From Anaerotruncus sp. (GTDB lineage Bacteria > Bacillota > Clostridia > Oscillospirales > Ruminococcaceae), in the NCBI GenBank assembly GCA_021770005.1, contig JAETRV010000011.1, positions 1-61,884 of the forward strand: 61,884 bases of DNA, given 5' to 3'. Position 1 is the first letter of the stretch. Every line of letters starts with the position of its first letter. Shown here in pieces: positions 13,079 to 18,571 of the stretch. The notes under the pieces were generated by a model. The model searched no databases. It was not told the origin of the DNA and saw only the letters and a program-made list of their open reading frames with translations. The position numbers were made by a program, and so were the translations under genes.

Positions 13079-13091
13079 GAGCAAAATTCGT

Positions 13092-13119
13092 TTGCAATCG
13101 AGGATTTCTGTGGTATAAT
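13092..13119 (+). promoter_or_regulatory. corA promoter
   Basis: TTGCAA (13092-13097), 16 nt, TATAAT (13114-13119). The -10 box lies inside the left arm of a large inverted repeat, so a DNA-binding repressor could block it. The predicted start of transcription is near 13126, giving a leader of about 180 nt before corA. Confidence 0.72.
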
Positions 13120-13160
13120 AAGCACAATCAGCAAAGCCAATTGTGCTTATTACACCACAG
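13108..13160. promoter_or_regulatory. 21-bp inverted repeat over the corA promoter
   Basis: The left arm (13108-13128, containing GTGGTATAATAAGCAC) and right arm (13140-13160, containing GTGCTTATTACACCAC) are complementary at 20 of 21 positions, around an 11-nt spacer. Because the left arm includes the -10 box, only the right arm would be in the transcript from this promoter. An operator is therefore likelier than an RNA hairpin. The protein that would bind it is unknown. Confidence 0.75.
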
Positions 13161-13193
13161 CGAAGAAATTGTAATAATAGGAGGTGCGCAGTT

Positions 13194-13289
13194 TTGAACC
13201 CTGACCCAGGAAACGGCCACAGTAGCAGGCTGAAAAAGGAACAGAACCGAATGTCAAGGGGAACTGCCGCCCAGGGAGATGCCCCTTGA
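13194..13289 (+). CDS. Putative 31-residue leader peptide of corA (MNPDP...)
   Basis: TTG-AAC-CCT-GAC-CCA opens a 31-codon frame with a strong AGGAGGTG nine nt upstream, ending at TGA 15 nt before the corA ATG. The peptide begins MNPDPGNGHSSRLKKEQ and ends GDAP. The early Pro-Asp-Pro recalls E-P-D-P at the start of Salmonella MgtL, where nascent acidic/proline residues destabilise the ribosome in low Mg2+. The 3' end of the frame lies within a hairpin whose alternative partner is the corA ribosome binding site. Seen: frame, RBS, spacing. Inferred: Mg2+ sensing. I could not match the region confidently to the M-box riboswitch, although 'ctgccgcccag' resembles a piece of it. Confidence 0.55.
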   Translation: MNPDPGNGHSSRLKKEQNRMSRGTAAQGDAP

Positions 13290-13298
13290 AGAAAGGGG
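13254..13298 (+). promoter_or_regulatory. Mutually exclusive hairpins at the corA start
   Basis: CCCCTT (13282-13287) can pair in two ways. In hairpin A, TCAAGGGG (13254-13261) pairs with CCCCTTGA (13282-13289), 8 bp. In hairpin B, CCCCTT pairs with AAGGGG (13293-13298) across a 5-nt loop, 6 bp, and AAGGGG is the corA Shine-Dalgarno. Hairpin A frees the site and hairpin B hides it. The 5' arm of A lies within the leader frame, so ribosome movement there could set the choice. Confidence 0.6.
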
Positions 13299-13304
13299 TT
13301 TGCG

Positions 13305-14240
13305 ATGCTGAATTTTTACAAAACAATAGACAACCGCGTTCTGCGGATCGATGCGCCCGAAACGGGTTGTTGGATTTCCGCAGTCAGCCCGACCGAGGGG
13401 GAAATCGCGTTCCTGACCGGCGACCTTGGGGTCGAGCCGGATTTTGTACGCGCCGCGCTCGACGAAGAGGAAAGCTCCCGTATTGAGAGTGAGGAGGGGC
13501 AGACCCTTGTGATCGTCGACTATCCCTCAGCAGAGGAACAGGCGGACGAAAACAAGACGATCCTCTATACCACCCTCCCGATGGGGATTATCATTACACA
13601 GGAATATGTGATTACCGTCTGCCTGCATGAGAACATGACCATCCTCGACCTTGCAGCCGGACGGGTGAAGGGGCTGCAAACCTCGCTGAAAACACGGTTC
13701 CTGCTTCTGACCCTGCTGCGGATTTCCCAGCGGTTTCTGATCTACCTCAAACAGATCGACAAAATCTCCTCCACCACCGAACAGCGGCTCCACCAGTCGA
13801 TGAAAAACAAGGAGTTGATCCAGCTTTTGGGGCTGGAAAAGTCTCTGGTTTATTTTTCCACTTCGCTGAAAGCGGATGAGATCACCCTCGAGAAGATTCT
13901 GCGCGGACGGATCATCAAGCTGTATGAAGAGGACGAGGATCTGCTCGAGGATGTTCTGATCGAGATCAAACAGGCGATCGAGATGGGCAATATCTATTCC
14001 AACATCCTGTCCGGGACCATGGATGCGTTTGCCTCGGTCATCTCAAATAACCTGAATATCGTGATGAAGGTGCTCACCTGTATCACGATCGTTATGGCGA
14101 TCCCGAACATCGTGTTTAGCTTTTACGGCATGAATGTGACCGGCCTCCCGCTTGCTGTCTGGTGGTTCCCGATCGTGATTGCACTTATCGCCAGCGCGAT
14201 TGTAACGCTTGTATTGATGAAAAAGGACATGTTCCATTAG
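13305..14240 (+). CDS. corA: CorA-family divalent cation channel
   Basis: A 311-residue CorA protein, which forms a pentameric channel for Mg2+ (in some homologues Co2+ or Ni2+). A cytoplasmic N-terminal domain and long helices (to about residue 245) lead to two C-terminal membrane segments, the first ending in the signature YGMN (near 271). The tail is basic (MKKDMFH). The ATG follows AAAGGGG. Expression is probably controlled by the leader described above. Start, length and GMN motif make the family certain; the metal specificity is inferred. Confidence 0.95.
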   Translation: MLNFYKTIDNRVLRIDAPETGCWISAVSPTEGEIAFLTGDLGVEPDFVRAALDEEESSRIESEEGQTLVIVDYPSAEEQADENKTILYTTLPMGIIITQEYVITVCLHENMTILDLAAGRVKGLQTSLKTRFLLLTLLRISQRFLIYLKQIDKISSTTEQRLHQSMKNKELIQLLGLEKSLVYFSTSLKADEITLEKILRGRIIKLYEEDEDLLEDVLIEIKQAIEMGNIYSNILSGTMDAFASVISNNLNIVMKVLTCITIVMAIPNIVFSFYGMNVTGLPLAVWWFPIVIALIASAIVTLVLMKKDMFH

Positions 14241-17883: not shown

Positions 17884-17905
17884 ATATGAGAGGAGTAGAT
17901 TTTTG

Positions 17906-18571
17906 ATGCATCTGACAACAAAACTGACCGCAACCGCATTTGCCGCCGCTATGGCGCTGTCCTTGGGCCTGCCGGCGGTCGCAGCCGACTTTGACGTTTA
18001 CGCAAAGCGGATCAACACCAACAAAGAGACTGTCGAGGAAAAAGCCCCATTTGAGGGCGATCTGAACTTTGATGTTTATGCGAAACGGATCAACACCAAC
18101 GAGGTCGTTGTTGTGGAGAAAGAGCCGTTCACCGGCGAGCTGAACTTCGACGTCTACGCCAAGCGGATCAATACCAATGAGGAGCCGGTCGTTGAGAAAG
18201 AGCCGTTCCAGGGCGAGCTGAACTTCGATGTTTACGCAAAACGCATTAACACCAACGAGGAGCCGGTCGTTGAGAAAGAGCCGTTCCAGGGCGAGCTGAA
18301 CTTCGATGTCTATGCAAAGCGGATCAATACCAATAAGGAGCCGGTCGTTGAGAAAGAGCCGTTCCAGGGCGAGCTGAACTTTGACGTCTACGCAAAACGC
18401 ATCAACACCAATGAAGAGCCGGTTGTCGAGAAAGAGCCGTTCCAGGGCGAGCTGAACTTTGACGTCTATGCAAAACGCATCAACACCAACGAGATCGTTG
18501 TCGTTGAGAAAGAACCGTTTACCGGTGAGCTCAACTTCAATGTCTATGAGAAAAAGATCAACATTGCCTAA
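17906..18571 (+). CDS. Secreted protein of seven tandem 26-residue repeats
   Basis: 221 residues. A signal peptide (about 1-27, hydrophobic core AFAAAMALSLGLPAVAA) is followed by seven nearly identical 26-residue units and a partial eighth. The unit is FDVYAKRINTNEEPVVEKEP followed by FQGELN. The middle units are almost identical, the first and last more diverged (KETVEEKAPFEGDLN; EIVVVEKEPFTGELN). The mature part has no cysteine and no anchor motif and is rich in Glu and Lys. I recognise no domain. The TTG just before the ATG is unlikely to be the start; AGAGGAGT lies nine nt before the ATG. Alternating beta-strand-like and charged segments suggest a regular fibrous or solenoid fold, which is inference. 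Confidence 0.85.
   Translation: MHLTTKLTATAFAAAMALSLGLPAVAADFDVYAKRINTNKETVEEKAPFEGDLNFDVYAKRINTNEVVVVEKEPFTGELNFDVYAKRINTNEEPVVEKEPFQGELNFDVYAKRINTNEEPVVEKEPFQGELNFDVYAKRINTNKEPVVEKEPFQGELNFDVYAKRINTNEEPVVEKEPFQGELNFDVYAKRINTNEIVVVEKEPFTGELNFNVYEKKINIA

Follow-up and report, generated by a model that had tools for sequence, protein, structure and literature searches.

Upstream of corA, a Mg2+ channel gene, in a 61,884-nt stretch of Anaerotruncus sp. DNA (contig JAETRV010000011.1; hereafter the window), we found a 31-codon frame beginning M-N-P-D-P, together with three short arms that can pair in two alternative ways. We consider it probable that this frame is a cis-acting leader peptide whose own translation signals Mg2+ to corA, by way of ribosome drop-off at low Mg2+ and a switch among the arms, termed A, B, and C. 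Comparable leaders, recognized by their x-D-P start, are associated near-exclusively with two unrelated families of Mg2+ channel, CorA and MgtE, and in one bacterial class they stand in tandem with the M-box riboswitch. The anatomy of the leader, the conservation of its coded x-D-P start, and the enrichment of A:B pairing were obtained by computation and comparison across loci.

The proposed mechanism runs as follows. At low Mg2+, ribosomes fresh from joining M-x-P-D-P would turn unstable and leave within the first codons. Arm A, which lies about 15 codons further on, would then be free to form A:B, and this would keep C, the corA Shine-Dalgarno sequence, open so that the importer is made. With ample Mg2+, the ribosome would continue over A, B:C would form, and corA translation would be switched off. 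In some relatives, B:C probably terminates transcription too. A preliminary description of this region had read the leader and its switch in the same way, and the comparisons below support that reading; the identity of the signal as Mg2+, the loss of ribosomes at x-D-P, and the direction of the switch are our inferences.

Anatomy of the corA leader

The corA gene of the window (13305..14240, plus strand, as are all features of the leader) encodes a CorA-type Mg2+ channel of 311 amino acids (Pfam CorA PF01544, E = 1.6e-51). A consensus scan predicted a promoter at 13091..13119, composed of TTTGCA, a 17-nt spacer, and TATAAT preceded by TG (10/12), and several upstream regions of corA in the same genus contained similar TTGCAA...TATAAT stretches when inspected by eye. 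The leader Shine-Dalgarno sequence, AGGAGGTG, occupies 13179..13186, and GGAGGTG is common at this site in relatives. The leader frame itself, identified from sequence and conservation, extends from a TTG start to a TGA stop (13194..13289), encodes a peptide that opens with MNPDP (MNPDPGNGHSSRLKKEQNRMSRGTAAQGDAP), and stops 15 nt short of the corA ATG (13305), which recovers the frame originally reported. Its M-N-P-D-P core (13194..13208) is the stretch proposed to destabilize the ribosome, given the conserved D-P and a likeness to the EPDP of the enteric leader MgtL.

Arm A, TCAAGGGG (13254..13261), lies in the second half of the leader frame, and arm B, CCCCTTGA (13282..13289), overlaps the leader stop codon. 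Arm C (13292..13299) contains the corA Shine-Dalgarno sequence, AAGGGG, at 13293-13298. Both of the pairings first described for CCCCTT at 13282-13287 are present: with A over 8 bp (CCCCTTGA:TCAAGGGG), or with C over 6 bp, or 7 bp with G-U, around a 5-nt loop. The computed energies of the two hairpins were -17.7 kcal/mol for A:B and -10.7 kcal/mol for B:C. In computed folding, the probability that the corA Shine-Dalgarno sequence is unpaired was 0.42 with A free, 0.01 with A masked, and 0.35 with A and B both masked. Because the leader stop codon of the window lies inside B, a ribosome parked there would cover B, which would reopen the corA site. Only 0.5% of 200 dinucleotide shuffles matched the A:B helix (p = 0.005), while the B:C hairpin taken alone was ordinary, with 39.5% of dinucleotide shuffles reaching it (p = 0.395).

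A known metal riboswitch covering the same bases had been named at the outset as an observation that would count against the leader. An Rfam scan of the window gave no family at cut-off over the leader, M-box (RF00380) included. Between 12990 and 13340, at E ≤ 5, there were six matches, all of them on the opposite strand and far under their respective cut-offs. The 31 leader codons also contained no run of codons for a single amino acid of the kind found in trp- or his-type attenuators.

Three other features of the window are recorded here. A self-match revealed a long inverted repeat at 13108-13160 (CTGTGGTATAATAAGCACAAT / ATTGTGCTTATTACACCACAG) that spans the predicted -10 element, and the transcript would begin in a hairpin. 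A TPP riboswitch (RF00059, 67.2 bits) is located at 301-413. A 222-aa frame at 17903-18571 is built mostly from a repeating unit of about 28 residues that contains the motif NFDVYAKRINTN.

Conservation of the leader upstream of corA

We defined a leader as a short frame with a purine-rich site ahead of it and a peptide that begins with M, zero to three residues, and D-P, with M-D-P starts also admitted. Counting weak matches, corA was present in 41 of 61 related genomes and in 120 of 197 genomes of the family. We retrieved the region upstream of 121 corA loci in the family and order; weak matches, together with the partial or N-terminally short matches in G076, G080, G091, and G113, were not fetched. 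A leader was found by rule upstream of 80 of these 121 corA genes, as compared with 0/121 for the reverse strand and, on average, 1.85/121 for mononucleotide shuffles. When each genus was represented by one locus, 48 of 74 genera had a leader. All ten other species searched within the window's genus carried corA, and in nine of them it was preceded by a leader starting MNPDPG. The tenth (L011) belongs to the 41 of 121 corA genes without a leader by rule. Among the loci that failed the strict motif, several had look-alikes by eye, including MSPYPDG, MADDVG, MSEDGG, and MEGEP. In the rest of the class, a leader (mostly D-x-D-P) was present at 11 of 26 further corA loci and absent at 15. This class sample comprised 44 corA-bearing genomes, from which 26 new loci were examined and 14 were not fetched; L310 was misread, its upstream flank being cut.

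The D-P pair is invariant in the 80 corA leaders because the search rule demanded it. Its codons nevertheless vary: Asp is encoded by GAC in 72 leaders and GAT in 8, and the Pro of D-P by CCT in 35, CCG in 26, CCC in 12, and CCA in 7. This synonymous variation implies that the peptide is under conservation rather than the DNA. The residue directly ahead of Asp was most often P (42), followed by G (14) and A (10), and two residues ahead of Asp we found N (31), S (20), or D (11), such that N or S occupied this position in 51 of 80 leaders. In 37 of 80 leaders, D-P is retained while Gly, Ala, Ser, or Thr stands in place of the first Pro. Hence, of the acidic/proline P-D-P motif initially proposed, the D-P core stands, while the first Pro and the residue preceding it are variable and the motif in the window has a single acidic residue.

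Could the frame be a small, meaningless product of chance? The ordinary B:C hairpin of the window would be in keeping with this explanation. The conservation counts refute it: the reverse strand, which yielded nothing at the corA loci, was equally empty at 68 mgtE loci from across the phylum (0/68), and the codons change synonymously. We assign this explanation practically no weight.

Alternative pairing across loci

To compare arms among loci, we first identified at each one the best B:C helix, between the corA ribosome site and upstream sequence. We next identified the best A:B helix, between that same B and the leader, and set both against dinucleotide shuffles. The controls were 118 open frames of at least 180 codons with a Shine-Dalgarno sequence, drawn from the window and 20 named loci, which are open frames rather than curated genes. 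A:B reached p ≤ 0.05 at 43 of 79 corA loci with a leader, at 4 of 41 corA loci without one, and at 10 of 118 other open frames. This enrichment was significant by Fisher's test relative to both the open frames (1e-12) and leaderless corA (1e-6). With one locus per genus the proportion was 26/48, and among mgtE rows with a leader it was 12/29. The alternative pairing, which the preliminary description had offered for comparison in relatives along with the frame, appears to be kept in many of them.

B:C reached p ≤ 0.05 at 30 of 79 corA loci and in 3 of 29 mgtE rows, and alone it was rarely beyond chance. A joint test of both arms at 0.02 was also passed by 19 of 118 ordinary frames. As the joint p is uncalibrated, we placed reliance on A:B and on the comparison between groups.

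At the 49 loci where at least 5 nt of B were common to A and C, the median center of A was 22 nt before the leader stop and that of B was 7 nt after it. With this spacing, a ribosome moving along the leader would sit on A while B stayed accessible. The arms vary by locus, with A resembling C in each case, as in AAGGGG/CCCCTT/AAGGGG, GGCGGA/TCCGCC/GGCGGA, and AGCAT/GTGCT/AGCAT (A/B/C). Since arms were chosen by pairing, the likeness of A and C only illustrates the point, which is tested by the comparison with shuffles. Two-sided changes that preserve pairing were seen at all 4 B:C consensus pairs in 21 loci, which were given from 34 short-hairpin loci that had themselves been picked from the 79 for having a short hairpin. 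A MAFFT alignment of ten leaders from the window's genus put the arms out of register, and no pairs were counted on it.

Under equilibrium folding, the open-to-shut change in the window was 0.78, versus 0.13 in shuffles. Among relatives, the shuffle mean was exceeded in only 19 of 36 loci (41 of 80 were covered, of which 5 lacked a recognized Shine-Dalgarno sequence). The switch could hinge on the order of folding during transcription, or it may not be general.

It is conceivable that the frame is signal-free and serves only to couple corA translation or to boost it, in which case the arms would be ordinary anti-Shine-Dalgarno structure. The leader stop of some relatives lies 11-20 nt from corA, the frame runs into corA in 4 of 80 cases, and the ordinary frames that pass the joint arm test point the same way. 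However, coupling explains neither the conserved x-D-P start and its rarity before other genes nor the enrichment of A:B over other frames, and we regard it as very improbable.

Another alternative retains Mg2+ as the sensed signal and has the leader mainly end transcription, with B:C as an intrinsic terminator (or the untranslated leader as a Rho site) and A:B as an antiterminator. This would resemble enteric mgtL and corL, which work via Rho according to two reports (PMC11552253, PMC11282234). At 8 of 79 loci, B:C has a T run behind it (five or more T within 8 nt), and transcription may end there instead. L005 and L006, from Anaerotruncus colihominis and a relative in the window's genus, are among these eight. 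At the other 71 of 79 loci, the window among them, there is no T run by that rule, and arm C of the window is the ribosome site itself. On balance, we consider termination unlikely as the main mode. Control of translation, as originally suggested, fits the window, although the eight loci with a T run suggest that it may not extend to every relative.

In L005 and L006, the sequence just before the corA ATG reads GGCCCCT-loop-AGGGGCT followed by TTTTTT, which is intrinsic terminator-like. The leader of L005 is that of Anaerotruncus colihominis DSM 17241 (L200).

CGA codons following D-P

Within the first 12 codons of the 80 corA leaders, CGA accounted for 32 of 69 Arg codons. The corresponding number in the corA sequences of 30 loci was 13 of 328, and the leaders belonging to these 30 loci gave 7 of 20. 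CGA clusters at the position four codons past Asp, where it represented 17 of 21 Arg codons in the leaders of L001-L123. Overall, 30 of 80 corA leaders had CGA no more than nine codons after Asp, and 13 of 31 mgtE rows had it in the first 13 codons. The window's own leader has no CGA. This codon is read slowly in many bacteria. We speculate that CGA might act as a timer, holding the ribosome while the D-P chain sits near the peptidyl-transferase center.

The excess of CGA after D-P could also be expected of an attenuator that responds to some other signal, e.g., charged tRNA-Pro or a general slowing of translation. A precedent is Salmonella mgtP, which responds to charged tRNA-Pro (PMC8092293). 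We rank a proline-codon attenuator low because the first Pro is so often replaced while D-P is kept. Moreover, the same start is shared by CorA and MgtE loci and occurs beside the M-box, and their common theme is Mg2+. An attenuator for another signal thus seems distinctly improbable to us, and we continue with Mg2+ as the presumed signal.

Leaders before mgtE and their relation to the M-box

Leaders were especially frequent before mgtE in a distant class of Firmicutes (the class of G846), where 19 of 21 first-copy mgtE genes had one by rule. This count omits L143, with its upstream flank cut off, L162, which is partial, and second-copy or weak matches. D4-P5 was present in 16 of these 19 leaders (e.g., MDPDP, MDADP), and the other 3 start M-D-P (L151, L152, L163). 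Across the whole phylum, a leader was found at 12 of 68 mgtE loci and was lacking by rule at 56. Seven of the 12 have D4-P5, four start M-D-P (L265, L270, L276, L278), and one (L231, MSQNDP) is chance-like. The 68 loci came from 91 mgtE-bearing genomes, two of which gave two loci each. L278 is L163 again, meaning that one locus is doubled in the sets of mgtE rows (29 for the arm test and 31 for CGA).

Rfam placed an M-box (RF00380) just 5' in 12 of 18 mgtE loci scanned, 16 of the 18 being from the class of G846. Both an M-box and an M-x-x-D-P or M-D-P leader precede mgtE at L136, L142, L144, L151-L153, L155, L156, and L158-L161. These loci likely have two Mg2+ sensors in series on one mRNA, an arrangement that, if true, would make it possible to examine how labor is divided between RNA-based and ribosome-based sensing of the same ion. 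The idea of a Mg2+ leader acting on CorA is backed by the same kind of leader before the unrelated mgtE, mostly behind an M-box in one class; it can no longer be confined to CorA or to the Oscillospiraceae, where it had first been placed. At L163 (G652), where the mgtE leader starts MDPLP, a cobalamin riboswitch lies downstream.

Twenty of the 68 mgtE loci from across the phylum were scanned with Rfam, and 6 had an M-box. None of those 6 had a leader, which implies that M-box and leader are not generally linked and that the tandem is no rule. In the group of corA and CNNM loci, no M-box was found by Rfam at any of 20 loci scanned (18 corA, 2 CNNM). At a further corA locus, L028 (G023), an M-box lies directly 5' of corA with an acidic frame, MADDVGRKR, between them, a possible bridge between the M-box and corA leader groups. 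Under stricter filters, 7 of 61 sampled genomes of the window's family, G023 among them, had an M-box, and 54, including the window's own genome, had none. If our reading of the leader is true, it would provide Mg2+ control of corA in such a family.

Comparison with known Mg2+ leaders

The published systems are compared here as described in the reports cited. In MgtL of enteric bacteria, E-P-D-P causes ribosome drop-off at low Mg2+ (PMC11282234), and efficient translation of the leader accompanies the OFF state (PMC11282234, PMC11552253). Judged from sequence, a Mg2+ importer gene of the window likewise carries in its 5' leader a short frame that looks coding and has an acidic/proline x-P-D-P start, although M-N-P-D-P contains one acidic residue versus two in MgtL. 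Strong destabilization is consequently not assured for N-P-D-P, and drop-off appears to be the least secured step of the mechanism. MgtL further differs in that it governs a P-type ATPase gene by Rho-dependent termination in enteric bacteria. The window element, in contrast, belongs to CorA (or, elsewhere, MgtE) in Firmicutes, its arms overlie the ribosome site, and P-D-P in such leaders is often preceded by N or S.

The mgtQ leader in the mgtC-mgtB intergenic region of Salmonella is acidic, with Asp2 and Glu5, and when it is poorly translated the stem-loops shift and the mgtB ribosome site is released (PMC8092293). According to a section heading in that report, the Pro codon of mgtQ is not required. 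Like mgtQ, the window element would act on translation through alternative structures that free the ribosome site of a Mg2+ transporter, the site being sequestered in one of two exclusive structures in computed folding. Given that mgtQ is already translational, this mode is not by itself new. The two differ in several respects: mgtQ has 8 codons, lies between two genes of an operon and before mgtB, and uses four arms (1:2 plus 3:4 versus 2:3), whereas the window element has three. The acidic residues at positions 2 and 5 are also absent from the window's leader, which has N2, P3, D4, and P5. The window element may work like mgtQ even though it would not be classed as mgtQ.

A leader frame ahead of corA itself is known from Salmonella and E. 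coli, where corL is Rho-dependent and responds to intracellular Mg2+, and expression of the leader and of corA are inversely related. It differs from the window in having an N-terminus with a single proline and fewer acidic/proline residues (PMC11552253). The M-box (ykoK) shares cis control of Mg2+ transporter genes by Mg2+ with our leaders. It differs in that a folded RNA aptamer does the sensing, and no match at cut-off was found in the window or its own genome. Mycobacteria combine an M-box in tandem with a conserved small ORF, rv1805A. That ORF is described as mycobacteria-specific, its seventh residue is a conserved Pro, and no x-D-P leader is mentioned for the tandem in the text consulted (PMC12810186).

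On paper, the window element follows the principle seen in MgtL and mgtQ, but with a CorA target, a Firmicutes host, three arms, and MgtE and M-box relatives. In our search of the open-access literature, with subscription papers and preprints mostly outside it, no Firmicutes corA or mgtE gene was reported to have an x-D-P leader, and no experiment on such leaders appeared. The natural variants NPDP, SPDP, DADP, DGDP, and KPDP, together with the look-alikes ADD and PYPD, offer a ready set for working out the rules of ribosome destabilization in Gram-positive bacteria.

Pattern searches blind to corA

We also scanned genomes for the leader pattern irrespective of the gene that follows. In 394 genomes of the order, the search gave 12 hits, of which 8 preceded corA, 3 formed the very beginning of a CNNM/CorC-type protein, and 1 had no start codon; a reversed control pattern gave 1 hit in the same genomes. 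Among 398 genomes of the phylum there were 8 hits (2 corA, 4 mgtE, and 2 others) and 4 with the reversed control. A stricter pattern applied to all species, at one genome per species, resulted in 50 hits. Thirty-four combined a usable start codon with a frame no longer than 60 aa; of these, 23 preceded corA, 4 mgtE, and 7 other sequence. The remaining hits were split between 8 with CTG and 8 opening into frames longer than 60 aa. Of the corA cases, 20 were assigned by protein match, L183 and L212 by the first codons of a gene truncated by the end of the locus (six in L212), and L195 as the contig of L036.

The seven short-frame hits without an adjoining corA or mgtE (L188, L201, L204, L207, L208, L217, L219) were taken as chance. 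In one of these, L219 from Silanimonas, an MgtE match (E = 6e-56) occurs 868 nt on with a 241-aa frame intervening, and it was scored as other.

Two of the 4 all-species mgtE cases are from Aeromonas, outside Firmicutes. In Aeromonas piscicola and A. bestiarum (L175, L218), an 11-codon frame, MDPDPGACTGD, starts 142 nt before the mgtE start, and downstream of it are a small hairpin and then a T-rich stretch, suggesting the same idea in a Gram-negative.

We lean somewhat toward viewing x-D-P leaders as widespread and recurrent ribosome-based Mg2+ sensors that are independent of transporter type (CorA or MgtE) and range from Firmicutes to Aeromonas. One class would be gated twice, by leader and M-box aptamer, and many leaders would use a slow CGA about four codons past Asp to hold the ribosome at its weak point. 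If true, the sensing of Mg2+ by a weak nascent peptide that shakes the ribosome loose would be a general bacterial solution and not an enteric specialty.

At three loci of one genus (L129, L130, L131), CNNM/CorC-type proteins themselves begin MDPDPNG. Starts of MDPDG, MEPDG, or similar were seen in CNNM/CorC-type proteins at 8 of 29 family loci examined (L322, L325, L328, L337, L338, L347, L349, L350). If such P-D starts are destabilizing at low Mg2+, synthesis of these proteins would drop directly, or the starts may simply reflect membrane topology.
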